From Phycisphaerae bacterium (GTDB taxonomy: Bacteria > Planctomycetota > Phycisphaerae > Sedimentisphaerales > Anaerobacaceae), in assembly GCA_028715705.1 (NCBI GenBank), contig JAQURJ010000005.1, positions 1 through 46,785 on the forward strand: a DNA stretch of 46,785 nt, read 5' to 3'. A program made the position numbers and the translations under genes. The notes under the pieces are model-generated. The model had not been told where the DNA came from, did no database searches, and worked only from the letters and a program-made list of their open reading frames with translations. Below, in pieces: positions 7,940 to 28,963 of this stretch (position 1 is its first letter; each line of letters opens with the position of its first letter).

Positions 7940-7950
7940 GAAAACCTCCA

Positions 7951-8586: not shown

Positions 8587-8588
8587 TT

Positions 8589-9305: not shown

Positions 9306-10051
9306 TTGCCGCTCCTTTTCCTTGCGTACAAAAGGTAATCGTTCGCAAAATCCGCTGTATCCATATCAGTATTCGGCAAATCTAAAATCAATTGAGATCT
9401 ATCCAGAACAAGCATACGCCGGCAACACCTTAGACCAAAATTTATGTCATGGGTAGTCATAATGACCGTTCCTCCGTTATCGACAAATCCGGCTAAAACG
9501 GCTACCAGGTGTTCACAAGCATCCTTGTCCAGACCGGTAAAAGGTTCATCGGCAAGAAGTATTGCCGGGCGGTGCACCAAAGCCCTTGCGATACTCAAAC
9601 GCTGAAGCAACCCACGGGAAAGAATATCGGCTCTGTCATAGCGGTAAGATGAGAGGCCGACATCATCGAGAAGTTCAGTAACACGGGATTGACAGTCATT
9701 AACACCGTAAAGCTCAGCGAAGAACCGAAGATTTTCAAGAACCGTAAGGGCAGGATACACCATACTCTTATGTGAAATCACACCGAGTTTAGGTTTTGCC
9801 TTTTCGGGGTCCTTATGGATGTCATATCCACAAAGCCGGACGCTTCCGCTATCAGGATGAAGCAGGCCAGCGGCTATACGAAGCAAAGTGCTTTTGCCAG
9901 CGCCGTTGATACCGCAAAGACAAACAGAGTCACCTTTGTCTATTCGCAGGCTTAGGTCCCTCAATACCAACCTGGTCGAAAAGGCTTTGGATATCGATTT
10001 GATATTTATTACGGCATCGCCGCCTTCATTATTTTGTAAATGTTTGCTCAT
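9302..10051 (-). CDS. ccmA: Haem exporter ATP-binding subunit CcmA
   Basis: A ~249-residue ABC ATPase. Walker A is CGINGAGKST, the signature is LSRGLLQRLSIARAL, Walker B is ILLADEP followed by FTGLD, and the switch histidine is in MTTHD. With CcmB it powers release of holo-CcmE. The ATG at 10051 is chosen over a TTG two codons earlier; neither has a clear Shine-Dalgarno sequence, which fits translational coupling to the upstream gene, whose stop overlaps. It is identified as CcmA rather than a generic ABC protein by its place between ccmF/ccmE and ccmB. Confidence 0.9.
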   Translation of the reverse strand: MSKHLQNNEGGDAVINIKSISKAFSTRLVLRDLSLRIDKGDSVCLCGINGAGKSTLLRIAAGLLHPDSGSVRLCGYDIHKDPEKAKPKLGVISHKSMVYPALTVLENLRFFAELYGVNDCQSRVTELLDDVGLSSYRYDRADILSRGLLQRLSIARALVHRPAILLADEPFTGLDKDACEHLVAVLAGFVDNGGTVIMTTHDINFGLRCCRRMLVLDRSQLILDLPNTDMDTADFANDYLLYARKRSGN

Positions 10052-10053
10052 AA

Positions 10054-11046
10054 TCAATTTCTACGAGTACGTAAACGAAGAATCACAAAGATTATAACCA
10101 CACCAAATACCATAACAAGAATTATTTCTACAGGTAATTTTTCGGCAACATTAAAACCTTTGATCCTGAAGTCAACTTCATCACCCTTGGCAAGACCGCT
10201 GATCTTATAATAAGTCATTGAAGTACCACCTGAACGGCTGACGGTATTATCCGGCTGGCCAAGCCCTTCCACACGTGTCCCGTCAGCTTCAATAAAAATT
10301 ATAAGGTCGGATGTAGGCAGGGAAATCTTTTTCGTAATATTAATAGTGGGTCGGTCAATATCGAGCGTGTAGAAAAAAGCCGCCGAATATTCACCGGGTG
10401 GAATCGCCATAGTATCGTAAAATCCATCTCTGGTAACAATAAGTGCGTTTTCATCAAAATAACTTATACTCTTAAAGTTGTGAAATTCTTTGGGAAGCAT
10501 CATTTTTAAAACAACCGGCCTGTTTTCACTATCCGTCTGCTCTGAAGAGATGGCCATATCGGAGACATTTTTGAGTTGGATATACTCACTGATCTTAAGT
10601 CCATCTGGACCTGTTTCGATGATCATGTGGTGTGTTGCTGCTGAAAGATTTGAATTGTCATAGGAAACCTCATAGACATAAACTGCAATATTAACATTAT
10701 TTACATCCGAAGTTATTACTGCCGGATGACCGCTAAACATCATGCCGCCGTGTTTTACTTTTGCGATTGCCATCGACTGACCAGTGATGTGGATATCTGA
10801 AAAAACTATCTGACTATTGGCATCAACAACACCATCTAATTTTTTTATCAACTGGTCATGGCCATATATCTGAATCGTAACCGTATCATCGGCTGCGGCA
10901 GAAGCACCTTCAGTGCCATTTATAACATCGACTGTAAGGCTGGCGGTAAACCCATTTGCATCTTCTGCACAACATGCCATATCAGCAGCACAAAATACCG
11001 GAAAAAATAAGTTTAATACCATTATAAGCGTTATGATATATCTCAC
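10054..11046 (-). CDS. Membrane-anchored periplasmic protein of unknown function in the ccm operon
   Basis: A 330-residue protein with a cleavable signal peptide (ends near PVFCAADM), a largely beta-strand periplasmic region, and one C-terminal helix (VEIILVMVFGVVIIFVIL) followed by the basic stop-transfer RLRTRRN. A C-C pair (MACC) follows the signal peptide, but there is no CXXC thioredoxin motif and no haem motif. The early part (residues ~30-120) resembles Ig-like or transthyretin-like folds; the later part has PPGEYSAAFFYTLDI, like beta-sandwich domains. It lies between the ccmF block and ccmA with no space for a separate promoter, so it is co-expressed with cytochrome maturation. System I variants without CcmH need another way to present apocytochrome; this protein is a candidate partner, purely by context. 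I do not recognise the family. Confidence 0.75.
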   Translation of the reverse strand: MRYIITLIMVLNLFFPVFCAADMACCAEDANGFTASLTVDVINGTEGASAAADDTVTIQIYGHDQLIKKLDGVVDANSQIVFSDIHITGQSMAIAKVKHGGMMFSGHPAVITSDVNNVNIAVYVYEVSYDNSNLSAATHHMIIETGPDGLKISEYIQLKNVSDMAISSEQTDSENRPVVLKMMLPKEFHNFKSISYFDENALIVTRDGFYDTMAIPPGEYSAAFFYTLDIDRPTINITKKISLPTSDLIIFIEADGTRVEGLGQPDNTVSRSGGTSMTYYKISGLAKGDEVDFRIKGFNVAEKLPVEIILVMVFGVVIIFVILRLRTRRN

Positions 11047-11062: not shown

Positions 11063-11146
11063 CTATTCGGTGGAATTTTTTGAAATCAACGGCCAAATCA
11101 CGAATAAAACACTTGCTATCAGTAAAATCCATTTCAAATTATGCAT
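11063..11146 (-). CDS. 27-residue single-helix membrane protein overlapping ccmF
   Basis: The ATG at 11146 overlaps the ccmF stop (GATGCATAA) and is preceded by GGAGG at about eight bases. The product is MHNLKWILLIASVLFVIWPL plus ISKNSTE: a short polar start, one hydrophobic helix and a polar tail. It ends 17 bases before the next gene's start, whose own AAGGAG lies in the gap. Position, ribosome-binding site and membrane character argue for a real microprotein, but with only 27 codons chance cannot be excluded. It is different from the CcmD-like ORF at 7817. Confidence 0.5.
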   Translation of the reverse strand: MHNLKWILLIASVLFVIWPLISKNSTE

Positions 11147-13082
11147 CGCCAGCCTCCATATCAACCTTACAGGATGTGAATTTTTGTTTATAGATAAAGA
11201 ACAGGATAATTATAACTCCGAAAACGGACATAATAGAACCGATCCAAATCCAGTTTATAAGCGGTTTTATGAGCACTCGAAGATTTATGGTTTCGTCCGT
11301 ACTGTTTGCCGCTTCCAGCGCGAAATATAAGTCACCTCCCATAGTTCTTCTGATATCAACCTCGCTGGTCCATTTTTCGCTCACGTTATAAAATGCGCGG
11401 GATGGAGCCAGCTGGGCAACCAGCAGTTCACCTTTTCGCACGTCGATGTCGGCTATAACAGCCGTACGGTTCGTTTGATCGCTGACTCTAAGACCTTTAT
11501 ATTCGATATCAAACTCGCCTACATTCACTTGATCACCAGGTTTTAATACCATCTGCTTTTCAATGCTGAAGCCTCCAGAACCTGCTATACCGATAAAAGT
11601 CATGACAACGCCGATATGCACTATCCTCGAACCATACCATCTAAGATTAATTTTCTGAGCGACACTTTTGGTATCGTTTGCCCGACTTCTAAGATGCCTG
11701 TTCATAAAATCGCCAAGAATACTAAGCAGAGCAAATCCGCAAAGTATAAAACACAAAATCGCCAGTTTGTGCGTTGTCAGCCAGAACACAACAACCGCAA
11801 CCGCTGCAAGAAGTCCGCCGATAGTGCGCCACCTTCTGTTAATTCCATAACGCAAGAAAGCAGGACATATCGCCAGCAAAAACAGCATTGCCAGTCCGAT
11901 GGGGGCAGTTATCTTTGTGAAATATTCTGGCTTAAGCGTTATTTTCTGATCGCTGAAAAGGCCGCTTAAAAACGGAAATAGCGTCCCTACAAGTATAACG
12001 AATGTCAATAGCATCATCAGCCAGTTATTAAAAACTATAAAGTTATCGCCACCCGTTGAGACCATGGGAGTATTCCAGCGACGGTAAAAACGCCATAGAA
12101 GCATCGCTGCCAAAACCGCTATATGAATCAGCAGCACCAGAAACAATATACCCAAACCGGGGTCAGGAAAAGCATGGACACTTGAAACCAAGCCGTATCT
12201 TGTAAGGAATGTCCCTAAAATGCATAAACTAAATACAACGATGCCAAGTATGATCATCCAGACCGCAATCGGACTATTTTTTCTATACGTTCTCGAGCAG
12301 TGCAGCAATGCCGTAGCTACCAGCCATGGCATCAATGATGAATTTTCGACAGGGTCCCACGCCCAATAACCGCCCCACCCAAGTTCTTCATAAGCCCACC
12401 ATGCGCCAAGAGCGATCCCTATTGTCAAAAACATCCACGCCCATAATATCCAGTTGCGTGCTTGCGACAAAAACAGGGAAAATTCCTGCATGTCACGACT
12501 TTTAAGGCAGGCAAATGACCATGCAAAAGGTATGGCAAAAGCCGCATAACCAATAAAGAGTGTCGGAGGATGCAGAGCCATCGCTGGATGCTGAAGCAAA
12601 GGATTCAGACCAGCCCCATCGGAAGGAGTTACCAAGGATAGCGCAAAAGGATTCTTATCAAAAATCATGACGGTGAGAAAAAAAACCGAAACGAAATTAG
12701 CAATCGCTCTGGCGGCTGCGGCAAATACTCTGCGATCTTTTCCAGATCTTGAAAAAACGATGGTGACAAAACCAACCTGCAGCCACAACCAAAACAAAAG
12801 CGACCCGGCTGCACCAGCCCAGAATGCGCTTATTTTATACGCAAGCGGCAAATCTTTTGATGTATGCTCGGCAACATAGCTGACACTGAAATCAGACTTG
12901 ACCAGCAACATCCAGAGCACGGTCGCAGCAACAGTAAGACATGCAAAAGACGCCATTGTAGCATTGCGTCCGCTCTTAACCACCCCCCAGTCCTTTCGCC
13001 AACTCCCCAGCGTATCCGCTAAAACAGCGTACCCACTCAAAAAAAGACAGAGAAGCAGAGTAAATTTTCCAAAATCGGCCAT
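11139..13082 (-). CDS. ccmF: Cytochrome c haem lyase subunit CcmF
   Basis: A 647-residue polytopic membrane protein, the usual CcmF length. The WWD motif WGGYWAWDPVENSS is intact at about 236-249, flanked by conserved histidines in LLQHPAMALHPPTLF (about 163-177) and HCSRT (261). A large periplasmic domain precedes the last helix near the C-terminus. It ligates haem delivered by CcmE to the CXXCH cysteines. Normally CcmF works with CcmH, which keeps apocytochrome thiols reduced; no ccmH or ccmG is in this cluster. ccmE ends three bases upstream, and the 27-residue ORF overlaps its stop. Confidence 0.95.
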   Translation of the reverse strand: MADFGKFTLLLCLFLSGYAVLADTLGSWRKDWGVVKSGRNATMASFACLTVAATVLWMLLVKSDFSVSYVAEHTSKDLPLAYKISAFWAGAAGSLLFWLWLQVGFVTIVFSRSGKDRRVFAAAARAIANFVSVFFLTVMIFDKNPFALSLVTPSDGAGLNPLLQHPAMALHPPTLFIGYAAFAIPFAWSFACLKSRDMQEFSLFLSQARNWILWAWMFLTIGIALGAWWAYEELGWGGYWAWDPVENSSLMPWLVATALLHCSRTYRKNSPIAVWMIILGIVVFSLCILGTFLTRYGLVSSVHAFPDPGLGILFLVLLIHIAVLAAMLLWRFYRRWNTPMVSTGGDNFIVFNNWLMMLLTFVILVGTLFPFLSGLFSDQKITLKPEYFTKITAPIGLAMLFLLAICPAFLRYGINRRWRTIGGLLAAVAVVVFWLTTHKLAILCFILCGFALLSILGDFMNRHLRSRANDTKSVAQKINLRWYGSRIVHIGVVMTFIGIAGSGGFSIEKQMVLKPGDQVNVGEFDIEYKGLRVSDQTNRTAVIADIDVRKGELLVAQLAPSRAFYNVSEKWTSEVDIRRTMGGDLYFALEAANSTDETINLRVLIKPLINWIWIGSIMSVFGVIIILFFIYKQKFTSCKVDMEAGDA

Positions 13083-13085: not shown

Positions 13086-13484
13086 TTATTCCACCTTTGC
13101 TTTATACTTTGATTCACAACGTGTCATGAGAGTTTCCGCGTCAAAGACCGCATTGGTATTCATACGCCCTTCCACAACTACTTCTATGCCTTCGGCGAAA
13201 TTATCCGGAACGGTACCTTTGTATTCAACCGGCACCTCTGATTTCGAACCGGCAATGGTGAAAGTCATATCCATAGCATTTATATCACGCACAATGCTTC
13301 CATCTTTTACCTTTCCGGTTATCCGCAGTGAGTTATCCTTAACAACATCACTGTTAGCGGAAAAATCATCCACAGAATAATAATACGACCATGATGACTG
13401 CATGGCCTGATACATGAAATAGCCCGTACCACCGCCAATGACAAGTATCCCTATCAAAACTTTAACGATTGTTTTTGTTTTCAC
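13086..13484 (-). CDS. ccmE: Haem chaperone CcmE, CxxxY variant
   Basis: A 132-residue periplasmic haem chaperone with an N-terminal anchor (IVKVLIGILVIGGGTGYFMY) and an OB-fold core (LRITGKV, FTIAG, VPVEYKGTVPDNFAEG, VVVEGR). Classical CcmE binds haem through the histidine of an HxxxY motif; here the site is C123-ESK-Y127, so cysteine replaces histidine. The CxxxY form defines the variant System I described from archaea and some bacteria such as Desulfovibrio, which also lacks CcmH; the gene set here agrees. The start is GTG with GGAG five bases upstream. It lies 32 bases after the 12-haem cytochrome gene and just before ccmF. Confidence 0.93.
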   Translation of the reverse strand: MKTKTIVKVLIGILVIGGGTGYFMYQAMQSSWSYYYSVDDFSANSDVVKDNSLRITGKVKDGSIVRDINAMDMTFTIAGSKSEVPVEYKGTVPDNFAEGIEVVVEGRMNTNAVFDAETLMTRCESKYKAKVE

Positions 13485-13516
13485 TATTGCTCCTTTTCAA
13501 AATTAATTTTAAAAAT

Positions 13517-15166
13517 CTAATACTCTTCTGGTGAGTGCTCTTTGCCATGGCAAGCCAGAAAACATCGGCCATGTTCCTGGCCAAGATCATCAAATTCCAA
13601 AAACCCCGTCACCTGATCCGGACTTACTATCGAGATGTCGAAATTAATCAGGTGAGTATTATTTGCTAAATTGCCTTGTGCCGAACTAATACCGTGCGGA
13701 TCATGACACGCAGAACATGGAATATCTTCCTTAAGGTGCTCTTCATGCTTGGGAAAACTTTCGTCATTTAGAATACTGTTTCTGCTATGACAGCTATAGC
13801 AAAGGGCATAAGCATAATCACTTTCCTTCGTAAAATCAGCTGTCTGATATTGTTTGGCAAGTAAGTTAGGATAGATGGAGCCGTGCGGTCCCTTAGCCCC
13901 TGAGCCGCTGTTAGAGCTATGACAGTCGGTACAATATATTATATCGGCAACGGTCATAGGCTGAAGCAGACTCGGAACATTTTTATTTACACCTGTCGAT
14001 ACAACCGGATGAAAAGAGGGGTTGGAAATATCAAATTCCAGGCGTGTATTGGTCTGGGTTATCTGTCGTGTTATCGAAGATTGAACCCTGTTTGGATTAT
14101 CACCGTGACATTTATAGCACACCTCGTATTCATATTGAACTCGTGGAGTTGTCCCGCCTGACGCCGTAACTCCGGAAACTCCCCGAATCGCCCCCTTTGC
14201 AACCGGAGCCTGTACTGTTATGGACTGCATGCTGTGAGGATTATGACAATCAACACATTCCACATGTTCAGGGGCTGATGTAGGTATCTCCGTGGGATCA
14301 TGAATCCCGTTATACCGAGTCACATCATGCCTTGAAAATTTATTGATCTCAGTTCTCAAATTGGTTGTTGCTACAGAACCATCATGACAATTGAGGCAGT
14401 TATCCTCGGACTTTGAAAAATGAAGCAATCGCTGGTGTCCACCCGCCAGATGAGGCCGATGACAGCTTAAGCATCCGGCATCACCGACTGTCGCAAAGCC
14501 AGTGGCTTGTAGATAGGTGTCACTTGTGGCAACTAATGGCACCGATGATCTTTCATGGCTGGAATTGATCCATCCATAAAGATCATGACAGCTTACGCAC
14601 ATAGCCGAGCGATCATTGGGCATAACCATAAAATTACCATACTGATTGTCATGCGGGTCGTGACAGGTAGTACATTGCAATTCGTTCGATCTGTCAAGTT
14701 TAAGCTGGGAAGGCAATATGGATGGCGGGCGTATTTCCGTATCTTCGGCTGACAAAGCCGCAGAATAAATAAAACTGATCGGATGGTCATCTGACAGGTC
14801 TGTTCCAATATTTGCCACATCTGGAGATATATAAGTCCCGCCAGTAAACTCGCCGCCTATCGTCTCAGTCAAAGCAATCGTACCATCATGGCAGCTAAGG
14901 CACAACTTGCTTGACCCTGTCGGCTGGCCCACTTTGGCATCTAAAGAGGTGCTTTCATATATCTTATAGACCGCCGAAGAAAGTTTGTGATTCCACAGCG
15001 GAGTTCCAACCAGAGCGCCGTGCGGAGTATGGCAATAACTGCAAGGATTACGTCCGCCAATAACTGACAGATCGTGCGGGGAACCTTCTATCGTTGCCAG
15101 GGCCGATGAACACCACAGCAAGCAAATAAGAATTATCCACAATAAACAGAATAAAGAAATTTTCAT
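13517..15166 (-). CDS. Dodecahaem c-type cytochrome, secreted
   Basis: A 549-residue exported protein with a signal peptide ending near SSALATIEG. It has eleven CXXCH motifs and a final CX3CH (CFLACH), so up to twelve haems. The first half has the same pattern as the tetrahaem protein at 21681 (CHTPHG, then LWNHK or LWNSD, YxSxSLDA, CLSCHDG, HPISFIYSAAL), showing that the two share a domain. CH-x-PH segments (CHDPH, CHRPH, CHNPH) are of the 'doubled CXXCH' type. Its start overlaps the preceding NHL gene stop (ATGA) with GGAGG upstream, and ccmE follows 32 bases later, tying it tightly to both the conduit genes and maturation genes. It is either periplasmic or, if moved through the barrel or another route, outside the cell. 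Confidence 0.9.
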   Translation of the reverse strand: MKISLFCLLWIILICLLWCSSALATIEGSPHDLSVIGGRNPCSYCHTPHGALVGTPLWNHKLSSAVYKIYESTSLDAKVGQPTGSSKLCLSCHDGTIALTETIGGEFTGGTYISPDVANIGTDLSDDHPISFIYSAALSAEDTEIRPPSILPSQLKLDRSNELQCTTCHDPHDNQYGNFMVMPNDRSAMCVSCHDLYGWINSSHERSSVPLVATSDTYLQATGFATVGDAGCLSCHRPHLAGGHQRLLHFSKSEDNCLNCHDGSVATTNLRTEINKFSRHDVTRYNGIHDPTEIPTSAPEHVECVDCHNPHSMQSITVQAPVAKGAIRGVSGVTASGGTTPRVQYEYEVCYKCHGDNPNRVQSSITRQITQTNTRLEFDISNPSFHPVVSTGVNKNVPSLLQPMTVADIIYCTDCHSSNSGSGAKGPHGSIYPNLLAKQYQTADFTKESDYAYALCYSCHSRNSILNDESFPKHEEHLKEDIPCSACHDPHGISSAQGNLANNTHLINFDISIVSPDQVTGFLEFDDLGQEHGRCFLACHGKEHSPEEY

Positions 15167-16242
15167 TTCTCGCCTCCCTCCAGAAGATCAAACACCTGGA
15201 TTCTTGAATTGAATGAGTCTGCGATATATATCCTGTTTTGTTCATCTATGCAAATACCAGCAGGCAGCCAGAATTGTCCTTCTTTATTGCCTTCATGTCC
15301 CCATGCCATAAGTATCTGATCGTCCTTATTGAATATCTGGATATTTTCAAATTGTCGATCAGTTACATAAACATTTTCAAAGTTGTCAACCACAATACCG
15401 CAAGGATGGGCAAAATTGCCAGGTCTATCGCCCTGTACACCAAACTCCCTGATAAATTTGCCGGCGGCAGTAAAGACCTGTATCCTGTAATTGAGGGTAT
15501 CGCTGACATAGAGCAGGCCTTTGCTGTCAATGAACAAATGGGTCGGAAAATTGAATGAACCAGGACCAGAACCCCTCTGCCCAATCTGTTCAATAAAATT
15601 GCCTTTGGGGTCGAATAAATCTATCGTGTGCCGTGCAGTATCTGTAATATATACTTTTTGCTCAGCAGGCCAATAGGTTATCCCCGTCGGTCTTTTAAGT
15701 CTATCCTTTCCAAAAGAAAACAGGAAATTTCCGCCCAGGTCAAATACACAAACTTTTTGCAAAACACTATCAACTACAAAAACTGAATTGTCAACTATTG
15801 CCAAACCAACAGGATTCAACAATCTTTCATTTTCTGAAATTTCAAAGAATTGCTTGTAGTTACGGTTTTCAAGGTTGAAAATGTGAACGACAGCGCCTGA
15901 AACGTCACTAACATACAAGACCTTACCATCTTCAACGACAACGGCATATGGCGCAACCAAAACACCTTTATCCTTCTTTCCAAAAATAAATTGGCCAACA
16001 CCTTCGAAAAACGCAATTTCTTTTTTCAGGTCAGCTTCGCCTGACAATGAACCCACATATTCTATACGTGGTTTTTCCGGCGGCTCGGGCCATACCAAAT
16101 GCTGCTCCCGCGGTGGAAACAATTCGCCTCTCGGACTGCCGCATCCGCCGCAAGCCACAACCAACAGAACAGCCGTAAAGCAAATTCCAGCGAAATTGCC
16201 GATCATGCTCTTAATCATAAAATGTCGCACCATAACCCTCAT
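15163..16242 (-). CDS. NHL-repeat beta-propeller lipoprotein
   Basis: A 359-residue lipoprotein: basic start, hydrophobic helix and lipobox (VVACGGC-G near 31-36), then a short linker rich in Pro/Glu and about six NHL-type repeats (e.g. FNFPTHLFIDSKGLLYVSDT, FAHPCGIVVDNFENVYVTDR) that would close one six-bladed propeller. No enzymatic motif is seen; NHL propellers are usually binding scaffolds. The gene overlaps the barrel gene stop (TAATG) and the next cytochrome start, so all three are translated together. It is a paralogue of the NHL lipoprotein at 18947, and the two flank the barrel and lipoprotein cytochrome. A structural role in holding cytochromes at the outer membrane is inferred. An ATG three codons downstream would serve equally. 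Confidence 0.85.
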   Translation of the reverse strand: MRVMVRHFMIKSMIGNFAGICFTAVLLVVACGGCGSPRGELFPPREQHLVWPEPPEKPRIEYVGSLSGEADLKKEIAFFEGVGQFIFGKKDKGVLVAPYAVVVEDGKVLYVSDVSGAVVHIFNLENRNYKQFFEISENERLLNPVGLAIVDNSVFVVDSVLQKVCVFDLGGNFLFSFGKDRLKRPTGITYWPAEQKVYITDTARHTIDLFDPKGNFIEQIGQRGSGPGSFNFPTHLFIDSKGLLYVSDTLNYRIQVFTAAGKFIREFGVQGDRPGNFAHPCGIVVDNFENVYVTDRQFENIQIFNKDDQILMAWGHEGNKEGQFWLPAGICIDEQNRIYIADSFNSRIQVFDLLEGGEK

Positions 16243-18278
16243 TAAAAAATTCGTCTCAGCCTAAAATATAGAAACGTGGTGTTATTTTCAGTATCCCTTC
16301 GCTTGAGGAAGTCTATCTCCATCCCCAGTTCAAAGCTCAATTGCCGATACCTGTATTGAAGTTCCGGAATGAAGTGTAACCCAGTGGTTTTGCCGAATGA
16401 ACTGTCATTTTCATTGCGATAATCCAGGCGAGTCGAAATACTGTACGTATCTGTGAGTCTGCTGGATAATTCGCCGCCAGCATCAAAAAACGTTATGTCT
16501 CTGGGGTCCGGTTCGCCAAAATCAAGCCAGTGATTCGATGCATATACGGTTGCTCTTGTATCCTGATTTACAAGCCAGTTATAACTAGCCTCAAGCCGCT
16601 TGCTTGTTGATGGACTCTGGGTGGAATCTTCTTTGCTATATTCGGCCAGCAATCCCAAGCCCCCCTTATAATAATCCGCACCAAAAGTGTTTACTCTATA
16701 TTCATCGGGTACGATATTGCTGAAGTTCGATTTAATTTTTTCATCCTGACGTCGATGAGAGTAATACAAAGAAAATCCATTTGTAAAACGCTCCCTCAGT
16801 GTAAAGGTCTGGTAAAGCCTTTCCTCAGTTCTTTCCGGCTCAAGAATGAAATCATAATCAAACGAAAGGGTCTGATCGCCGCTCAGGAAAATATCTCCGC
16901 CGGTAATAATCGATATTTGCACCCTGCCGTTAATTTCCGTAACCCTGTAGTCAATATTCTCAAGAAAAACTGTGGTTCTGACGCTATCCCATACGACAAT
17001 GGTCGATGCGTCAATATCTCTCCTGTCAAGCTCTATGGGTGTCGGGTCAGTTACTCTAAAGAAGTGACGTTCATTTATCACTGTACCTATGCCGCTGCCG
17101 CCAGACTGTTCCGTCTCGGTAAGAGTGGTGGTATATGTGGCAAATAATGTTCCCCATGGGTTTTTCTTTTGGTAATTAAATCCCAACGTCCCTCCCTGCT
17201 GGTTAATTTCGCTCTCGGAACCAATCTCTGTTTTAGATGTAAAAATATCTCCTGTCGTAAAAAGACTTTCATATAACCTGTGTTCAAAACCAGCCAAACC
17301 TCGAGTTTCAGTAGTTGTGGATATATCCTGTATGGACTCTAAATATCCAAATTCATAACGTGTCGAAAAGTTCTCTAAGTGCTTTATTCGAAAACGCTCT
17401 TCTAACTGCTGTGTTTCAAGGTTGAACGAACCAGTCTGTTTAAGATATGAAGCGAAGGTATCGAGTCTGTATTGCTCTTTGTCGCCGAAAATCAAGTCAT
17501 GCAAAAAAGTGTACCTATCTTTCTGCGTATCAGTCGAACCACCAAATCTTTGCTGAGAAAAATTATTCCGTTCAGCCTGAAAACTCATGTGCGACAATTC
17601 ACTGAAATAATGGCTTACAGAATAACTTAGACGTTTATCATCTCTGGTAAAAAAATCCCTCGCTCGCTGCGACAGTGAATTTTGAGTGGTTTTTGACTCG
17701 CTATAGCCAAACGTCATCGGCCAGTCCTCTGAACGCACAGAAAGTGAAGCACCTGAATTTTCGGTTTCAGACTGTAGCGATCCTAAAAAATGACGAGGGA
17801 TTATATCCTCCGATTTGCTCGTATAAAAATTTATAGGATACTTTTTCGTTCGCAGTAATTGTCCAAAAAAGTTGTATTCGTCAAGCGTGTCCGATACCCG
17901 TCCTGATTCCTCGTCCGAGTCAAGACGCTGTTGGGTAAGGCCTATACCAATACCCGCGTTAAAAAGTAAAAAATTGGGATGATACACACTGCCGGTCGTA
18001 TTCAGCCTAAGACGCTCCTCGAATACGGTCGTTTCGCTTTTTCGCAAATTGTTGCTTGCCCCAACCTCGTCCGTCTGTTTTTCGGCCACAAGTTCCACCT
18101 CTCCTCCGATAGGCCCATGCTCTATCAGCGGCATCCGGTTTCCCTTGACATCCATACTACAACCCATCATAAATATCATAATAAACACAAAAAAAACAGC
18201 AACAACAAAAATTTGTGATCTTTGCAAATGTCCAACAAATGCACCGGTTATTATGCGATATTTTATATCCGGCGCCAC
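16242..18278 (-). CDS. Outer-membrane beta-barrel, candidate electron-conduit porin
   Basis: A ~678-residue protein with an N-terminal hydrophobic segment ending in a lipobox-like FMMGC-S, an acidic linker, and then some 550 residues of alternating amphipathic strands with aromatic girdles, finishing LYFRLRRIF with the terminal phenylalanine typical of barrel proteins. Length and strand content would allow more than 20 strands, comparable with MtrB/PioB-like porins that sheath a multihaem cytochrome, though I cannot show homology. I use the GTG at 18278 because GGGAG lies five bases upstream; a TTG seven codons earlier has none. It is sandwiched between a pentahaem lipoprotein and an NHL lipoprotein. 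A lipidated barrel would be unusual, so the lipobox may be coincidental. Confidence 0.75.
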   Translation of the reverse strand: MAPDIKYRIITGAFVGHLQRSQIFVVAVFFVFIMIFMMGCSMDVKGNRMPLIEHGPIGGEVELVAEKQTDEVGASNNLRKSETTVFEERLRLNTTGSVYHPNFLLFNAGIGIGLTQQRLDSDEESGRVSDTLDEYNFFGQLLRTKKYPINFYTSKSEDIIPRHFLGSLQSETENSGASLSVRSEDWPMTFGYSESKTTQNSLSQRARDFFTRDDKRLSYSVSHYFSELSHMSFQAERNNFSQQRFGGSTDTQKDRYTFLHDLIFGDKEQYRLDTFASYLKQTGSFNLETQQLEERFRIKHLENFSTRYEFGYLESIQDISTTTETRGLAGFEHRLYESLFTTGDIFTSKTEIGSESEINQQGGTLGFNYQKKNPWGTLFATYTTTLTETEQSGGSGIGTVINERHFFRVTDPTPIELDRRDIDASTIVVWDSVRTTVFLENIDYRVTEINGRVQISIITGGDIFLSGDQTLSFDYDFILEPERTEERLYQTFTLRERFTNGFSLYYSHRRQDEKIKSNFSNIVPDEYRVNTFGADYYKGGLGLLAEYSKEDSTQSPSTSKRLEASYNWLVNQDTRATVYASNHWLDFGEPDPRDITFFDAGGELSSRLTDTYSISTRLDYRNENDSSFGKTTGLHFIPELQYRYRQLSFELGMEIDFLKRRDTENNTTFLYFRLRRIF

Positions 18279-18295
18279 CTTTACTCCCTTACATT

Positions 18296-18907
18296 TCAAT
18301 TGATACTGTCCATTATATCGGTTTTCATAAGCCCCCTTCTTGGACTTGCGTGGGCCTCATGACAATCTGTGCACACAGAATTCGGTTCTGCCGCATGAAC
18401 AAGCATTGATTCAATAATTTGCTGCTCATGACAGATATAGCAGAGTTTTGGCTGCGGCTCCTGCAAAAGGTGTTCAGCACTGCTTCGATGAGGATTGTGA
18501 CATATCAGGCATTCACCTACGGCTACCGGACCATGCACCCAACCGCTCAATCTGGAATATTCCTCATGGCACTGAAAACATAATTCAGGCACAGGCTTAA
18601 CCAACTTTACATTAAGTGAAAAATTTTTCATACTGTCTTGACCGTGGCAAGTCCTGCAATCTTTGGCCGGTTCATGCTCAAAAAGAACCTTACGTATTTC
18701 TGTTCCACGTCGCACCAATTCTTCATCGGAAGAGTTTATTTCCAAAGACGATTCTTCCGGCATCTGAGGCTCACCCCCTATCGGGGGCACACCGTCAAAA
18801 AAAAATGTCAGCCATTTCTGCTTTTCGACCGGATCGCAACTGATAGTAGTTAAAATAACTGTCAGAACTGCTAATCCAACAATTAAGCGTCTTGGCCGCT
18901 TAAACAC
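18296..18907 (-). CDS. Pentahaem c-type cytochrome lipoprotein
   Basis: A 203-residue lipoprotein with lipobox TTISC at about residue 24 (Asp at +2), a ~60-residue linker, and five CXXCH motifs (CRTCH, CFQCH, CLICH, CYICH, CTDCH) in the doubled-motif style (GPVAVGECLICHNPH also occurs, nearly identical, in the 15-haem protein at 23579). The GTG start has AAGG about ten bases upstream; an ATG nearby is out of frame. It sits between an NHL lipoprotein and the barrel gene. A small lipidated multihaem protein beside a barrel is the layout of porin-cytochrome conduits, in which such a protein plugs the barrel from the periplasmic side. Five haems could span about 30 Angstrom, short for a full membrane crossing alone. 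Confidence 0.88.
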   Translation of the reverse strand: MFKRPRRLIVGLAVLTVILTTISCDPVEKQKWLTFFFDGVPPIGGEPQMPEESSLEINSSDEELVRRGTEIRKVLFEHEPAKDCRTCHGQDSMKNFSLNVKLVKPVPELCFQCHEEYSRLSGWVHGPVAVGECLICHNPHRSSAEHLLQEPQPKLCYICHEQQIIESMLVHAAEPNSVCTDCHEAHASPRRGLMKTDIMDSIN

Positions 18908-18946
18908 GATATCATGGCCTTTCTAAATGAGCTAAGCAAACATAAC

Positions 18947-20140
18947 TCATTGGCTTGACGGCTCAGACTGCTGTTCTTCCGATACCCCAAGCTTTTCCTC
19001 AAGTTTCTTCTTTCTTTCCAATTCCCATTGTCTTTGCTCTTCCTGTGCCTCTTTTTCCTGTATCGGGAAGCTGCCGAAAGCGTAAACACCAACCTTGTGC
19101 AAACCATATTGGTTTGTAACCAGAACCATAAATTCAATGTCAGCCCCCGGTGCAATATGGTCCCTGAACAGTTCTATGTTATCATAGTCCAGTTTGATTT
19201 CGGCAGGAAGATTCATCATTCCAGGTTTATTGCCGGGAAGACCAAAATACGTCAAAATCTCTCCGTCAGGAGCGTAAACCTTGCCGACATCCGTTGCCGC
19301 ATCAATTATCCACAGCCTTCCCTCACGGTCAATTTCTATACCTTTGGGTCTGACAAATTCATTGATAGCATCGCCGGACTTGCCAATTGTAGTCTGATAA
19401 ATTCCAGACTTATCGAATTTTGTTAATTCGCCTTTACTCTTGTCCGTAACATAAACATTCTCAGCCGCGTCAATCGTGACGCTGCCGATCATTTCAAATT
19501 CCCCTATGCCGCTCCCTTGTTTTCCCATACGAAGAATTTCCTTCTGCGTAATAAGATCAAAGACAATAACCTGATTACTGCCAGAATCGGCTACATAGCA
19601 TCGTCGCCCGCGAACAACCACATCAATCGGACTTATTTTAAGATCTTTGCCTAAAATACCGCCAAAATTATCATCTTTGTCGAAAATGAATACGCCGCCT
19701 GCGGTCGGGTCCGCAATATATTTCGTCCCATCGTCCTCAATGAAAATATTTATAGGATTCATCAAGCGGCGGTCTTTCGTAAGATAGCCAAAAGTATGAT
19801 TCTTTAGATCAAGCACTTCGACCATCCTCCTGCTCACATCGCATACATATATTTTACCATCATAAATGGAAACACCGTATGGTTTTTCTATACCTTCCTC
19901 GGTTTTTGCCTTGCCTACCACAAATAACTCAAATGCACTGGGCCCTTTTACGCCCACATCTGAAGGTTCAGAATAAGATCTAACAAATTGAAGCATAGGC
20001 TTTGCCGGGGCTGGAAAAAACACCATTGCCTGGGTAGAATCCTCGGCAACCGGTTTCTGACATCCATAAAATAAGCAAACACCCCAAAATAGAAAGACAA
20101 ATAACAAATATCTGCGCAACAAATTTTCACTTATTTTCAT
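18947..20140 (-). CDS. NHL-repeat beta-propeller lipoprotein, first gene of the conduit-ccm operon
   Basis: A 397-residue lipoprotein with lipobox FYGC-Q near residue 27 and about six NHL-like repeats (e.g. KPYGVSIYDGKIYVCDVSRR, RPKGIEIDREGRLWIIDAAT), followed by a charged coiled-coil-like tail (EKEAQEEQRQWELERKKKLEEKL) that its paralogue at 15163 lacks. No catalytic residues are apparent. It is the first gene after the promoter at 20188-20216 and the following cytochrome begins about 40 bases after its stop. Gln after the lipobox Cys fits outer-membrane sorting if Lol rules apply. Probable role: scaffold in the outer-membrane cytochrome assembly (inference). Confidence 0.85.
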   Translation of the reverse strand: MKISENLLRRYLLFVFLFWGVCLFYGCQKPVAEDSTQAMVFFPAPAKPMLQFVRSYSEPSDVGVKGPSAFELFVVGKAKTEEGIEKPYGVSIYDGKIYVCDVSRRMVEVLDLKNHTFGYLTKDRRLMNPINIFIEDDGTKYIADPTAGGVFIFDKDDNFGGILGKDLKISPIDVVVRGRRCYVADSGSNQVIVFDLITQKEILRMGKQGSGIGEFEMIGSVTIDAAENVYVTDKSKGELTKFDKSGIYQTTIGKSGDAINEFVRPKGIEIDREGRLWIIDAATDVGKVYAPDGEILTYFGLPGNKPGMMNLPAEIKLDYDNIELFRDHIAPGADIEFMVLVTNQYGLHKVGVYAFGSFPIQEKEAQEEQRQWELERKKKLEEKLGVSEEQQSEPSSQ

Positions 20141-20187
20141 GGTGATCTCTTCAACAAATTAAAAACCCATTTCTATCACTTAAAGCT

Positions 20188-20216
20188 TATTTTAAGGGAA
20201 CGATAATTGTATTTCA
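20188..20216 (-). promoter_or_regulatory. Sigma-70-type promoter of the conduit-ccm operon
   Basis: On the minus strand TTGAAA (20211-20216) and TAAAAT (20188-20193) are separated by exactly 17 bases, about 48 bases before the ATG at 20140. No other promoter-like pair is closer, and the downstream genes are packed without gaps, so this likely drives the whole block to at least ccmD. Confidence 0.55.
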
Positions 20217-20264
20217 AGCCTGAAAAGATATTATTAAGCAAGAACTAAATTTCCACGTGTTAAC

Positions 20265-21494
20265 GGGCCTGTTGCCCAAATCAGATTTTCTTATATCAAC
20301 TTGCATAAAAATGCGCTAAAATTACTTCATCAATTATCGCTTTGGAGTAATCAATATGCTTGGAAAGCCAAATCAATTACAGCCAAAACTATTCTATAAT
20401 TCAATTTCTCTGGAGCAGCGGATTCATAAAGATCATCCACTGCGTAAAATCAAAGACTTAATCGATTTTTCGTATATTCGCTCAGAAGTCAAAGACCTTT
20501 ATCTGAAGATTTATATAATCAACTCGATAAAAGTACAGAAGATAAAAGTTCCCAGAAAATAAGTAAAACAGACCCTGACGCTGGTTTTGGCAAAAAGAAA
20601 GGGTCGCCTTCAGTCCTCGGCTATAAGGATCACAGGGCTGTTGACGATAAACACGGCATTATCACGGCAACTATTACCACAGCAGCTAATATTAGAGATG
20701 ACAAGGTTTTTGAAGACGCTCTTGAAGAGAGCATCTCTAATACAAAAATCAAACCCTCAACAGCAGTGGCCGATTCCGGCTATAGCTATGAAAACAACTT
20801 CGAATACCTTCATGACAATAATATACAAAGCTGTATTTCTCAAAGAGGATTTGGAAATATAATCTGCCAGGACTTTTCCAGAGATCACTTTCTTTATGAT
20901 GCCGACAATGACTGTTTTATTTGTCCGGCCGGCCAAAAACTGCTTCGTTTAACTCTTGCACAGCATAATGGAGTAGTAAAATACAGAGCCGAGAGACAAA
21001 CATGCCAAAATTGTGAGTATCTCAACAAATGCGTTCGTAGTTCTAAAAATGGTCGGATTGTAAGCCGTAAAATTGATATTGATTACCGTCATTGGGCATA
21101 TAACTGTCTCAGTAAAGAAAAACGCTTACGCCTTTTGAGGCGAAGAAAGCACAAAATAGAAGGCAGTTTTGCTGATGCAGCAAACAATCATGGTTTCAAG
21201 AAAATGAGATTTCGAAGTATTGAAAAAGCAACTATTCAGAACCTGATGATAGCTGCTATTCAAAATCTGAGAAAATTTATCAAATTCAATGTATTGAAAC
21301 CCGCTGTTTCAATGGCAAATTCTGCTCTGCATAAGACTATTTATGCTATTCTCAGCCAGTTTTTCTACTGTCGAAAGGCATTGACCTCAAATCTGAGCGA
21401 ATATTCAGTTTTCAAAGAACTTTTTCCAGCTTTTTCGATTCAAGCTGCTATTTTTATAAAATCTTTTTCAAAATCTGCTTTGGGCAACAAGCCC
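20265..21494 (+). mobile_element. Decayed IS1182-like insertion sequence with terminal inverted repeats
   Basis: The left end (20265-20289) and the reverse complement of the right end (21470-21494) match at 23 of 25 positions, sharing GGGCxTGTTGCCCAAAxCAG and the next five bases, which fits terminal inverted repeats. Between them is a transposase pseudogene. At about 1.23 kb the element is shorter than the usual ~1.6 kb for this family because the transposase has lost an internal part. No clear target-site duplication is visible. The transposase frame runs 12 bases past my right end, so the outer limits are approximate. It lies between the conduit-ccm operon promoter and the tetrahaem terminator without breaking a gene. 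Confidence 0.75.
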
Positions 21495-21506
21495 TTACAC
21501 CCGTAG
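20356..21506 (+). pseudogene. IS1182-like transposase, frameshifted with internal deletion
   Basis: The N-terminal piece (20356 to about 20500) has the LFYNSISLEQRIHKDHPLRK and SYIRSEVKDLY signature of the InsH/DUF772 domain. The remainder continues in a different frame from about 20499, with GKKKGSPSVLGYKDHRAVD, VADSGYSYENN (a catalytic Asp region), the Cys cluster CxxC...C in the insertion domain, and the C-terminal RLRLLRRRKHKIEGSFADA containing the catalytic Glu. Between SEVKDLY and the second part roughly 150 residues that normally hold the first catalytic Asp are missing. It cannot encode an active enzyme. Confidence 0.85.
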
Positions 21507-21583
21507 AATTGCGGCAGAGCATTAAAAATACCTTAGATGGCTTTTGGAAACGCCTTAAAATCGATACTTTTTAAATAAAAATA

Positions 21584-21616
21584 AGTCCGGAAAGCGAATG
21601 GTTCGCTTTCCGGACT
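21584..21616 (-). terminator. Strong intrinsic terminator after the tetrahaem cytochrome gene
   Basis: AGTCCGGAAAGCGAA (21584-21598) and its perfect reverse complement (21602-21616) form a 15-bp stem with a three-base loop. On the minus strand it is followed at once by TATTTTTATTT, a good U-tract. It lies 65 bases after the stop of the gene at 21681 and insulates the cytochrome operon from the IS remnant. Confidence 0.9.
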
Positions 21617-21680
21617 AAGTTAACATCTTAAATCACATACAAATCGGTTGCTAATAACTAATTTATGCAACCAGAGTTCA

Positions 21681-22280
21681 CTATTTAAGGTGGCAAACCT
21701 TACAAAGCGAACCCGTAGTAAAATTATCCTCGAAGCCAGCACGAAGATATCCATAATCCTTACTTGTGCCGCCTACATGAATATCATGACAGCTCGAACA
21801 CTGCATCTTGCCGGCATATAACATCTCGTGGGCAATCGTACCGGGTGTGTCAGTATCGCCCGGATCGACCAAATCACCATCCAAAGTCGCCAATGCAGAA
21901 TCATAGACAAACGAAACTGGGTGTGTACCAGCCAACCCCACTTCTCCGGTAATGTCGTGGCTACCGCCGTCATGACAGCTCAAGCATAGCCTTGAAGCCC
22001 CATCGGCACCGCCGACTGCATCCATGCCGGCATCCAACGAACTGCTGGCATAAACGGCAAATACAGCCGTGGTCACAGGTGTGCCGTAGGAACTGCCATA
22101 AGGTGAAAGCGGGTTAATTGTGGGGTCACTGTTCCACAGAGGCCCATCTACAGTCGTGTCCGCATTGTGGGGGGTATGGCATCTTGCACAGGCACCCTGA
22201 TGCAGAGCCATCACTGACGCTGTCATAGACAATACTGCAAAAGCTACCAAAAAATTTCCAATGTTTCGACTTAACTTCAT
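21681..22280 (-). CDS. Periplasmic tetrahaem c-type cytochrome under a sigma-54 promoter
   Basis: A 199-residue exported protein with signal peptide (NIGNFLVAFAVLSMTASVMA) and four CXXCH motifs (CARCH, CLSCH, CSSCH, CKVCH). It shares layout with the N-terminal part of the 12-haem protein at 13517 (CHTPH, PLWNSD, ASSSLDAGM, CLSCHDG, HPVSFVYDSAL), so it looks like the single-domain version. The ATG at 22280 is chosen because GGAGG lies nine bases upstream and the signal peptide begins there; upstream codons are not protein-like. It is separated from the upstream gene by 247 bases that hold a near-perfect sigma-54 promoter, and followed by a strong terminator, so it can be expressed alone. Probable role: soluble periplasmic electron shuttle made on demand. 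Confidence 0.9.
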   Translation of the reverse strand: MKLSRNIGNFLVAFAVLSMTASVMALHQGACARCHTPHNADTTVDGPLWNSDPTINPLSPYGSSYGTPVTTAVFAVYASSSLDAGMDAVGGADGASRLCLSCHDGGSHDITGEVGLAGTHPVSFVYDSALATLDGDLVDPGDTDTPGTIAHEMLYAGKMQCSSCHDIHVGGTSKDYGYLRAGFEDNFTTGSLCKVCHLK

Positions 22281-22354
22281 CCTACAAAACCTCCAAGCCC
22301 ATAATATATTGTTATTCTTCAGCCAGAACCATGCCAGCACTCTATAATAGACAT

Positions 22355-22370
22355 AGCAATAGCCGTGCCA
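22355..22370 (-). promoter_or_regulatory. Sigma-54 (RpoN) -24/-12 promoter
   Basis: On the minus strand the sequence TGGCACGGCTATTGCT matches the consensus TGGCACG-N4-TTGCW at every fixed position, with the GG and GC doublets ten bases apart. The start site would be about 22344, giving a leader of some 64 bases to the tetrahaem ATG. An activator of the NtrC family is encoded at 39598; whether it acts here is inference. Confidence 0.75.
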
Positions 22371-22527
22371 TTGCTTCAAACAGTATGCAAAAAAAAAAAC
22401 AATGAAACTTATAAAGCTTTTATTTACAAGGCGTTAAGAAAGGACAAAAATAAGGGAATAGTTATCACGGACCATCCGGAAATAACAATTTTCTCAATAA
22501 CAAGAAAGGGTGGGCCTTTGGTTATTG

Positions 22528-23571
22528 TCAATGGGAAAGTCCACTGTTGATGGTTTCAGGAAATATCCGCGATAAGGCTGTGCGATATACATTTAAGGCA
22601 TCTTCACTACGGCCTTGTGCTTCATATATCTTGCCTAATTCAAAAAAGGCCCTATTTAAGGCGGGGTTTAACTGGGTTGCCTCAAGCAAGAATTTTTCCG
22701 CATCCTCCATTTGTCCCGTTTGCCTCTTCGCCCACCCGTAAATCAGCTTGGTTTCAGCTCTTTGCTGTTGGGTTTGGGCATTTATCTGCCCTGCTATAGA
22801 CAAAGCTGCTTCGCTTTGGCCGCTTTTGCAATACAGCTCACCAAGCCGCAATAAAACCTCTGCTGAATTCGGATCAAGTTGCCGAGCTTCCTGAAGTTCG
22901 CTTACCGCCGCTTGAATCTTACCTTTCTGCTCAAGCAACCCGCTCATTTGTAAGTGCATCTGAACTTTTGCCTGCTGGGTACCATTTTGCAGCATCCTAA
23001 CCTGATTTGGTTCCTCAGCAGCCTCATGCCCGGCAATTCCCAAAACACTATTAAAATGAGACCTCAAAGAAGAGAAAAAATCATAACTATATCCGGCTTC
23101 GATCCACCTAATGCTGTCATCTTTTCCGACAAGCACTATTGTAGGCTTCGCAATTACACCCAATTGCCCCCACAATTTATGATCCGTATCAATTAGAAAA
23201 TGAAACTTCGGATGGATTTGCCCAGCCTCTGATTCCTTATCACTTTGAGTTTCCTGACTATCCATAACAATTAAAAAATCGAAAGGTTCGGCTATTTCAG
23301 GCAATTCTTTTGCCAGTCTTCTAATATCCATCAGTACATTCTTTGATTGTTCCTGATCGGCTGATAAAAAGGCAATCACCTGCACTCCACTCTGCCCATG
23401 TCTGTATGAAAACACATCGCCATTGGGGTCTATAAGTGAGAACTCCGGCATTTTATCGGAGACATTTATATTTCGCAATTGGGCTTTAACCTGGGCAACA
23501 AGAGCTAAACCACATGCCGCAATGATAAAACCAAAGATTCCGATTAGTTTTCGAGACCGACTGAATATCAT
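22528..23571 (-). CDS. Thioredoxin-fold domain plus TPR protein, membrane-anchored or exported
   Basis: A 347-residue protein with an N-terminal signal/anchor helix (IGIFGFIIAACGLALVAQVKA), a TlpA/AhpC-like thioredoxin fold (PEFSLIDPNGDVFSYRHG, then QVIAFLSADQEQS and the cis-Pro region IAKPTIVLVG), and four or five tetratricopeptide repeats (residues ~200-335, e.g. AAVSELQEARQLDPNSAEVL). The position where an active CXXC would stand reads SADQEQS, so it has no redox dithiol; it is more likely a binding or assembly factor than a reductase. Its ATG follows the 15-haem cytochrome stop by seven bases with GGAG inside the end of that gene, so the two are co-translated. A role in handling apocytochrome is suggested by context only. 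Confidence 0.85.
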   Translation of the reverse strand: MIFSRSRKLIGIFGFIIAACGLALVAQVKAQLRNINVSDKMPEFSLIDPNGDVFSYRHGQSGVQVIAFLSADQEQSKNVLMDIRRLAKELPEIAEPFDFLIVMDSQETQSDKESEAGQIHPKFHFLIDTDHKLWGQLGVIAKPTIVLVGKDDSIRWIEAGYSYDFFSSLRSHFNSVLGIAGHEAAEEPNQVRMLQNGTQQAKVQMHLQMSGLLEQKGKIQAAVSELQEARQLDPNSAEVLLRLGELYCKSGQSEAALSIAGQINAQTQQQRAETKLIYGWAKRQTGQMEDAEKFLLEATQLNPALNRAFFELGKIYEAQGRSEDALNVYRTALSRIFPETINSGLSH

Positions 23572-23578: not shown

Positions 23579-24958
23579 CTAGTCTCCTGATCCGGCTTGT
23601 GTTTCTGTATTTTCGGTTTTGGGTTTTTCATACGATACGGGCGATTGACGATCATAAGAGAATGACACATGACATCCAGGGCTGCAACTGCCACCCGTTT
23701 CGGTCTTGTCATACTTTATAGGCATATCCCACATTCCATAAGGAACACTTTCACGAATGTGCTTGGGCAGATCGCTTGCGTGAGTTGCGTGACATGCACG
23801 ACAGGTCCGTCCCCTCTCCTCTTTGTTCACATGCAGATAATGCAGATTTAAGCTGCCGTTTCTGAAATCGGTAAGATCGGTGGTCTGAGGTGTTAGAACA
23901 AGACTTTTTTCATGACAGCTAAAGCATAACTCATAATTTTCCTCGCTGAAAGGAGCATAAAATTGCGGAGGGTATTCTTTTGTAAGCAGACGGAAATTCT
24001 TGCTGCCATGGCTGTTGTGGCAGCCGTTGCAATTTTTCTCTGCCACAGGGCCATGCAGGTATTTCTTATTCTCGATCTGGTTCGTGAATGACGGCAGTAT
24101 TTCATCCTTGCTAATCCCCACAGGTTTATTGTGACAGGACATACACAGAGTTTCAGGATTATCCTTAAGACAGTACTTAACCGTAGAAGCATGAGGCGTA
24201 TGACAGTTCATACACCCATCCTTTTCAGTTATAGCGGTATGTTTATATTCCGCGGTTTCTGCAAGATTTTTGACATCCTCATGACACGGATAACATAATT
24301 GAGGCGCCTGCGCCTTAAGCATCATGGAATTGTCGGCACCATGACTATCATGGCAGCCGATACAGTTATCCTGTGCTGGCTTGTGAACAAATTCAAATTT
24401 CGCAAGCTCATTTTTTGTCACAATGTGACATGTCACGCAAAGTTCATAAGGTTCTGCTATCAGTAATTTTTCATGGTCTTCACTGTGTGAATCGTGACAG
24501 ATAGTACACTCACCTATTGCCACAGGCCCGTGAGGGAATTTCATACCTTTGCCTGTTTCATGGCATTCATAACAGAGTTCAGCAACCGTTTCTTTAGGCA
24601 AAAGAAACTTGTTGTCGCTGCTGTGCGGATCGTGACATTGAGCACAATCCCCCGTCTGAACCGGCGTATGAACATGCTTTTTGACGGCCTGATCTAAATG
24701 ACAGTATTCGCACAGATCTTTTCCCTTTCGCACAAGCGTAAAGGCATGTTTCTTTGGGTCAGCAGATTCGTGACATGATTTGCAGTCGCCAAGCCCTACC
24801 GGACCATGAACAAACGCCTTTTTGCTATAATCTGCATGGCATTCTTCGGTGACGCATGTCTTCTGAAGTGTTGTCGGCTTGTCCACGCCAAAAGCAGCTG
24901 ATGCCAATATACCAAATACTAAAATATTTAATCTGAAATTACATTTCTTTAATGCCAT
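23579..24958 (-). CDS. Pentadecahaem c-type cytochrome (doubled-motif family)
   Basis: A ~459-residue exported protein with a signal peptide (FRLNILVFGILASAAFG). It has thirteen CXXCH motifs plus one CX4CH near the start (CVTEECH) and one CX3CH near the end (CSPGCH), so fifteen haems are possible. Segments repeat with a period of about 40-45 residues (HGPVGLGDCKSCH, HTPVQTGDCAQCHDPHS, HGPVAIGECTICHDSHS, HKPAQDNCIGCHDSHG), so the protein grew by tandem duplication of a two-haem unit. I start at ATG 24958, after AGGA about nine bases upstream, instead of a TTG six codons earlier. It follows the ResB-like gene and precedes the thioredoxin/TPR gene. A wire-like role across the periplasm fits its haem number and place after the NapC-type cytochrome. 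Confidence 0.92.
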   Translation of the reverse strand: MALKKCNFRLNILVFGILASAAFGVDKPTTLQKTCVTEECHADYSKKAFVHGPVGLGDCKSCHESADPKKHAFTLVRKGKDLCEYCHLDQAVKKHVHTPVQTGDCAQCHDPHSSDNKFLLPKETVAELCYECHETGKGMKFPHGPVAIGECTICHDSHSEDHEKLLIAEPYELCVTCHIVTKNELAKFEFVHKPAQDNCIGCHDSHGADNSMMLKAQAPQLCYPCHEDVKNLAETAEYKHTAITEKDGCMNCHTPHASTVKYCLKDNPETLCMSCHNKPVGISKDEILPSFTNQIENKKYLHGPVAEKNCNGCHNSHGSKNFRLLTKEYPPQFYAPFSEENYELCFSCHEKSLVLTPQTTDLTDFRNGSLNLHYLHVNKEERGRTCRACHATHASDLPKHIRESVPYGMWDMPIKYDKTETGGSCSPGCHVSFSYDRQSPVSYEKPKTENTETQAGSGD

Positions 24959-25003
24959 TGTCTCGGTTCCTATCAAAAAAAAACCTTAATCTTTCTTGCT
25001 ATC

Positions 25004-26176: not shown

Positions 26177-26178
26177 TT

Positions 26179-28962: not shown

Positions 28963-28963
28963 A

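Follow-up and report, generated by a model that had tools for sequence, protein, structure and literature searches.

How extracellular cytochrome filaments are linked to the cell is poorly understood (PMC10553843), and the locus analyzed here raises the question of whether a dedicated set of genes might provide such a connection. The window, a stretch of 46,785 nucleotides from contig JAQURJ010000005.1 of a Phycisphaerae bacterium (assembly GCA_028715705.1), carries a minus-strand gene run (6694-27564) that extends from a NapC/NrfH-like cytochrome down to a six- to seven-haem cytochrome, and that includes two NHL propeller lipoproteins, a predicted giant outer-membrane barrel, an OmcE-like tetrahaem protein, a 12-haem cytochrome and cytochrome-maturation (Ccm) genes. 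Given what was observed directly, namely the gene content, the homologies, the barrel prediction and the conserved gene order, we consider it likely that the window encodes a near-complete extracellular electron-transfer chain, in which a new porin-cytochrome conduit would serve OmcE-type nanowires and the 12-haem protein might act as the filament base.

An earlier interpretation based on the letters of this stretch (hereafter, the sequence-only reading) had placed an operon for an outer-membrane conduit, framed by two NHL propellers and fused to its own maturation genes, at 13086-20216. Open reading frame (ORF) and family scans bore out the gene types and their order (NHL, pentahaem, barrel, NHL, 12-haem, ccmE-F-orf-A-B-C-D), with every gene that had been named confirmed on the minus strand, and the haem counts likewise agreed (five CXXCH in 18296-18907; 11 CXXCH and one CX3CH in 13517-15166). 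The core run (13086-20140) is almost gapless, the NHL1, pentahaem, barrel, NHL2, 12-haem and CcmE genes being spaced by 39, -4, -1, -4 and 32 bases. The proposed edges, however, were too narrow, since the module reaches 27564 upstream and 6694 downstream. Similarly, the single strand and tight spacing of the operon held, but its co-transcription is deduced from spacing, and a terminator-like hairpin (21579-21621) follows the OmcE-like gene. The conduit framed by two propellers was upheld by the MtrA-type cytochromes, the giant barrel and the cross-phylum gene order, but that description was incomplete, having missed the OmcE-type filament cytochrome, the OmcE-like domain in the 12-haem protein and the quinol-side cytochromes upstream.

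The propellers flanking the putative conduit are NHL1 (18947-20140; Pfam DUF5128 six-bladed propeller, E 4e-11; NHL, E 7.5e-8), which has a lipoprotein-like N-terminus, and NHL2 (15163-16242; DUF5128, E 7.5e-23; NHL, E 1e-20), which has a VVAC lipobox. The pentahaem lipoprotein (18296-18907) is MtrA-like, its top PDB match being MtrA (6r2q_A, E 1.6e-9), and it matches the OmcA/MtrC model weakly (19 bits, cut-off 209). The PDB entry of 6r2q_A is the Mtr complex, despite odd chain naming in the PDB file. In Verrucomicrobia/Lentisphaerae loci (L074-L082), the pentahaem slot is occupied by proteins of the same family with 11-21 haems, which are a repeat expansion of the conduit cytochrome.

At curated cut-offs, the product of the barrel gene (16242-18299, ~685 aa) fell into neither a Pfam nor an NCBIfam family, and the profile of its family matches no PDB sequence. 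A model built from 31 sequences (pLDDT 88.1, pTM 0.70) has about 28-30 barrel strands, as read from the DSSP list and not from coordinates, with a small inserted beta element around residues 420-475. When this model was compared to the PDB with VIA, MtrB ranked first (Z 20.5, 426 residues, root-mean-square deviation 9.6), followed by a row with Z 19.0. The structural check suggested by the sequence-only reading thus put MtrB on top in VIA, but with a narrow lead over TonB-dependent receptors. Because Foldseek and VIA both rank MtrB, TonB-dependent receptors, LptD and the ushers FimD and PapC close together, the structural match was used only to designate the protein a giant barrel; with no curated family match, it is taken to represent a new family. 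The alternative of a polysaccharide exporter, named beforehand as a possible outcome, found no support among the neighbouring genes. Thirteen of the barrel members also matched 'phage tail tube' entries of NCBIfam (best E 7e-9); these are probable cross-matches between beta-rich proteins and were set aside. In Phycisphaerae the barrel N-terminus presents a lipobox-like L-[AT]-G-C that most other groups lack, and its G-C is kept in 14 of 15 close relatives; the Phycisphaerae barrel is therefore possibly lipidated, which would be unusual for an outer-membrane barrel. In one Phycisphaerales chromosome (bin164, locus L062, 9941-11979) the barrel lies in two overlapping frames within an otherwise complete cassette, and this split is a frameshift or assembly error.

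The link to nanowires rests on two proteins with OmcE homology. The first, an OmcE-like tetrahaem cytochrome (21681-22379), is a candidate filament subunit, the signal peptide of which probably begins at Met34 (about 22280). Its orthologue in locus L067 matches PDB entry 7tfs, which is OmcE (PMC12954529), with E 1.5e-38. The alignment of this family contains four haem motifs and four conserved histidines outside them, three of which (H71, H153 and H201) are invariant; the fourth, an N-terminal histidine, is present in at least 90% of aligned sequences and lies at LHQG in the window protein. As judged from this conservation, the four are candidate distal haem ligands. In OmcE, an interfacial haem is ligated by a histidine from the neighbouring subunit (PMC12954529), and by analogy the subunit-bridging histidine would here be the N-terminal one. 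The second protein, the 12-haem cytochrome (13517-15166), combines an OmcE-like tetrahaem domain (about residues 21-195) with eight further haems. Its residues 14-195 match the PDB multihaem cytochrome 9yuq (E 6e-20), and residues 21-194 match OmcE 7tfs (E 3e-19). The OmcE-like domain has lost none of the four haem motifs and none of the four candidate distal histidines, the N-terminal one included. The haem motifs and His31, which sits where OmcE has its N-terminal HDL histidine, are invariant in 23 sequences across phyla, between which the protein shows 40-47% identity.

Upstream of these genes lie the components that could connect the conduit to the inner membrane. A NapC/NrfH-type membrane-anchored cytochrome with 10-12 haem motifs (26179-27564; Pfam Cytochrom_NNT, E 5e-10; NCBIfam NrfH, E 6e-15), which keeps the same place in relatives, is the probable quinol-side electron donor. 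It is followed by a 392-aa exported protein (25004-26182) that has no Pfam match and a conserved position in the cassette (its interpretation as a ResB domain was given no support by Pfam), by a 15-haem MtrA/DmsE-like periplasmic cytochrome (23579-24976; top PDB match MtrA 6r2q_A, E 2.4e-16; NCBIfam decahem_SO, E 4e-42, below the curated cut-off), and by a thioredoxin-fold and tetratricopeptide repeat (TPR) protein (22528-23571; Pfam TPR and Redoxin/AhpC-TSA) that is conserved in relatives.

Conservation of this neighbourhood had been set beforehand as a refutation test, and the order was found to be kept across phyla. In relatives, the NapC-type, unknown, 15-haem, thioredoxin-TPR, 4-haem, NHL1, 5-haem, barrel, NHL2 and 12-haem genes are directly joined, and in some of them the 12-haem gene is followed by ccmE-F-orf330-A-B-C. 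The same core order is present in about 50 loci, far beyond chance, and the succession OmcE-like/NHL/MtrA-like/barrel/NHL/12-haem is near-invariant in Planctomycetota, Verrucomicrobiota/Lentisphaerae, 'Deltaproteobacteria', Aminicenantes and Neomarinimicrobiota. A single-sequence scan of genome contigs found no loci, whereas an alignment-based scan of named genomes identified 41, mainly in Phycisphaerae, with the remainder in Victivallales, Lentisphaerae, Verrucomicrobia subdivision 3/Limisphaerales, a 'Deltaproteobacteria' metagenome-assembled genome (MAG), Aminicenantes and Neomarinimicrobiota. The barrel was found in 18 of 89 genomes of the GTDB family of the window, and in the phylum to which the 'Deltaproteobacteria' MAG belongs, matches came from 14 of the 297 genomes sampled. 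Gene order was counted by script in loci with enough contig DNA, using one set of handles only for those Phycisphaerae contigs that carry two. Among named loci, an NHL gene lies upstream of the barrel in 30 of 32 and downstream in 32 of 32, a cytochrome with at least five haems is directly upstream in 30 of 32, the 12-haem gene is downstream in 32 of 32 and an OmcE-like gene is present in 23 of 26. The corresponding figures for deltaproteobacterial loci are 14/14, 13/13, 13/14, 13/13 and 11/11.

In the mechanism that we infer, which covers assembly of the complex, polymerisation, the flow of electrons, its direction, and the roles of the propellers and the 12-haem protein, electrons from quinol would enter the NapC/NrfH-like cytochrome in the inner membrane and pass to the 15-haem MtrA-like cytochrome in the periplasm. 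They would then reach an outer-membrane complex of the barrel, the MtrA-like pentahaem lipoprotein, NHL1 and NHL2, and move through the 12-haem cytochrome into a filament of the OmcE-like tetrahaem protein. The propellers may be docking or assembly factors. The 12-haem protein would be the base or first subunit joining the outer-membrane complex to the filament, a role suggested by the retention of all haem motifs and candidate distal histidines in its OmcE-like domain. The conduit itself is suggested by MtrA being the best PDB homologue of both the 15-haem and the pentahaem proteins, by a giant barrel with MtrB as top match, by the OmcE homologies and by the conserved order. More tentatively, and at somewhat less than even confidence, we propose that the cassette encodes a dedicated base for OmcE nanowires in several phyla, in which the barrel, the MtrA-like wire and the two propellers would form a socket. 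The 12-haem protein, in which an OmcE subunit is extended by eight more haems, would be the first link, sharing either its N-terminal histidine or its last OmcE-like haem with the filament. Since a small set of parts is conserved together across phyla, and one of them resembles a filament subunit joined to an additional chain of haems, the connection between filament and cell becomes testable by structure and gene removal. From the cassette, extracellular electron transfer is further predicted for Phycisphaerae and for other lineages.

The systems nearest in kind are OetABI and MtrCAB. The nearest described one is OetABI, a conduit of sulfate-reducing partners of anaerobic methanotrophic (ANME) archaea and of Geobacter (PMC10553843), the operon of which was first described in PMC5539420. 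Both cassettes unite a porin, periplasmic and surface cytochromes, a six-bladed propeller and filament-type cytochromes, and both are proposed to feed or drain a nanowire. The OetABI core, however, comprises a propeller, 16-haem and 26-haem cytochromes, a peptidyl-prolyl isomerase (PPIase) and OmcX/OmcS-like filament proteins, whereas the cassette analyzed here, set apart by comparison with the description of OetABI, has two propellers, 15-, 12-, 5- and 4-haem proteins and an OmcE-like subunit, with no PPIase match among the cassette proteins scanned. MtrA-type cytochromes, and perhaps the barrel fold of MtrB (the first-ranked structural match, with a slim lead), are shared with the Shewanella MtrCAB system, but the barrel falls outside the MtrB/PioB sequence families, no full MtrC/OmcA member was found among the tested proteins, and propellers and a filament cytochrome are added. 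A predicted large porin clustered with multihaem cytochromes also occurs in freshwater Verrucomicrobia; this system, compared by description, has eight-haem periplasmic cytochromes, and NHL proteins are not mentioned for it (PMC5615132). Geobacter GSU2203/GSU2204 (NCBIfam NF041028, NF041027) similarly places an MtrA-like cytochrome next to a large protein, which is matched weakly, at the edge of detection, by one barrel member and the family profile, but it is a two-gene unit without propellers.

A further comparison is provided by Geobacter-like genomes (L133-L135, L149) with a true OmcE gene (E 6e-62 to 7tfs), which has an NHL protein, paired-CXXCH cytochromes and genes for cytochrome maturation as its neighbours. 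This arrangement resembles the one in the window and was counted in favour of the nanowire conduit. The maturation genes there belong to System II (ResB/ResC), with a ResB and Cytochrom_C_asm pair preceding the cytochromes, NHL and OmcE genes, in contrast to the variant System I of the window, and no 12-haem OmcE fusion was seen there. The linkage of maturation and NHL genes with OmcE-type genes therefore recurs under a different maturation system. In the same four loci, OmcE is followed by a protein of 750-790 aa without a Pfam match. No description of the cassette was found in the open-access literature searched, although a partial prior description in the OmcE/nanowire papers (Wang 2022, Baquero 2023) is possible, and the parts consulted of a class-wide genome survey that screened mtrBC contain no mention of such a system (PMC11266412). 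We conclude that the cassette is a new and widely conserved variant among porin-cytochrome conduits, one that probably serves OmcE-type nanowires.

Several results weigh against this interpretation. The OmcE-like protein of the window itself matches 7tfs weakly (E 1.2e-5), so that the homology is carried mainly by orthologues, and in this genome an insertion sequence parts the filament gene from the conduit genes. None of the 31 barrel members matches the MtrB/PioB models of Pfam/NCBIfam at E 1, and the structural lead of MtrB over TonB-dependent receptors, at 1.5 Z, is not decisive. AlphaFold gave the 12-haem protein a pLDDT of only 45 and haems cannot be modelled, hence no fold is claimed for it. 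Finally, the Geobacter-like genomes encode OmcE without a detectable homologue of the barrel (its profile gave no clear match), and OmcE-type proteins therefore do not need the barrel.

The same machine could also run in reverse, with minerals, Fe(II) or partner cells as the source of electrons. The genes are compatible with either direction of flow, and for OetABI, the closest system described so far, a role in taking up electrons from ANME archaea has been proposed (PMC10553843). The cassette, however, has no terminal oxidase or CO2-fixation gene among its scanned proteins, and it includes a NapC/NrfH-type cytochrome. Cytochromes of this type usually oxidise quinol, and we regard uptake as unlikely. 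A different role for the barrel, as an usher-like secretion or assembly pore for the OmcE-like filament, with the propellers and the 12-haem protein as assembly factors and electrons entering the filament elsewhere, would account for the barrel lying nearly always beside a filament-type cytochrome, for FimD and PapC being among its structural matches, and for NHL proteins adjoining OmcE even where the barrel is not detected. Yet a cytochrome with at least five haems, MtrA-homologous in the window, directly precedes the barrel in 43 of 46 loci, and in Verrucomicrobiota it grows to 11-21 haems, which fits a wire running inside the pore better than an exporter; we therefore hold the secretion role to be rather improbable. 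Ordinary MtrCAB/DmsEF-type respiration, in which a soluble acceptor is reduced outside the cell and the filament cytochrome is a mere neighbour, would be in line with the MtrA/DmsE-type cytochromes but is very improbable, given the lack of a terminal reductase or full MtrC/OmcA member among the tested cassette proteins and the presence of an OmcE-like gene in 34 of the 37 loci with enough upstream DNA.

The maturation genes that follow the proposed conduit encode CcmE (13086-13484; Pfam CcmE, E 2e-28), CcmF (11139-13082; Pfam CcmF_C, E 2e-49; NCBIfam nrfE, E 3e-119), CcmA (9302-10057; NCBIfam ccmA, above cut-off with 145 bits), CcmB (8589-9305; Pfam CcmB, E 2e-22), CcmC (7951-8625; Pfam Cytochrom_C_asm, E 2e-15; NCBIfam ccmC, E 7e-22) and, as judged from sequence and position without a Pfam match, a CcmD-like single-helix ORF of 44 aa (7817-7951) that overlaps the ccmC stop. 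CcmE is a CXXXY variant, in which CESKY stands in place of the haem-binding histidine in nine of nine loci compared, and no CcmH was found in the genome, which is about 96% complete. Allen et al. are said to have described in 2006 that CXXXY CcmE without CcmH defines a variant form of System I that some bacteria and archaea use, and on its gene content the Phycisphaerae set is assigned to this variant. Between ccmF and ccmA, orf330 (10054-11046), which has no family match and was aligned in eight loci, encodes an exported protein with a C-terminal transmembrane helix, a candidate for a missing apocytochrome-handling function. Ccm genes adjoin the conduit in nine Phycisphaerae loci (the window, L011, L014, L016, L017, L037, L038, L042 and L057) and not in most other relatives. 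The notion that the conduit has its own maturation genes is hence correct as regards local adjacency, but not as a private or general link: the linkage is frequent in Phycisphaerae, and this CcmE is the only one in the genome (a ResB-like gene lies at another place), so the Ccm genes of the window are the main set and not a private copy.

The hairpin located 3' of the OmcE-like gene (minus strand; -26.3 kcal/mol) ends in a T-run. Under a strict rule, such hairpins follow 10 of 46 OmcE-like genes, versus two of 46 NHL1 genes and none of about 265 other genes counted. A hairpin at this place would fit overproduction of the filament subunit, which partial termination might bring about. An Rfam scan returned no RNA. 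The insertion sequence, between the OmcE-like and NHL1 genes at about 20251-21508 (plus strand), is decayed, has 39-nt terminal inverted repeats (82%) and matches DDE_Tnp_1_6 (E 2e-21); it is confined to this genome among the relatives compared.

In a tree of 44 12-haem sequences, seven group-label changes were counted versus a minimum of four, so that members of a group tend to sit together without every group forming a single clade; this pattern points to an old origin with some transfer. Two divergent cassette copies are present in each of two genomes (L035 and L036 in G099; L104 and L106 in G287). The cytochrome of six to seven haems that closes the run (6694-7602; Pfam Paired_CXXCH_1, E 4e-10) is also terminal in locus L011. 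At the opposite end, genes for a histidine kinase and a response regulator (27595-29362) lie directly 5' of the cassette, and beyond them, at 29878-35348, there is an Nqr/Rnf-type operon.

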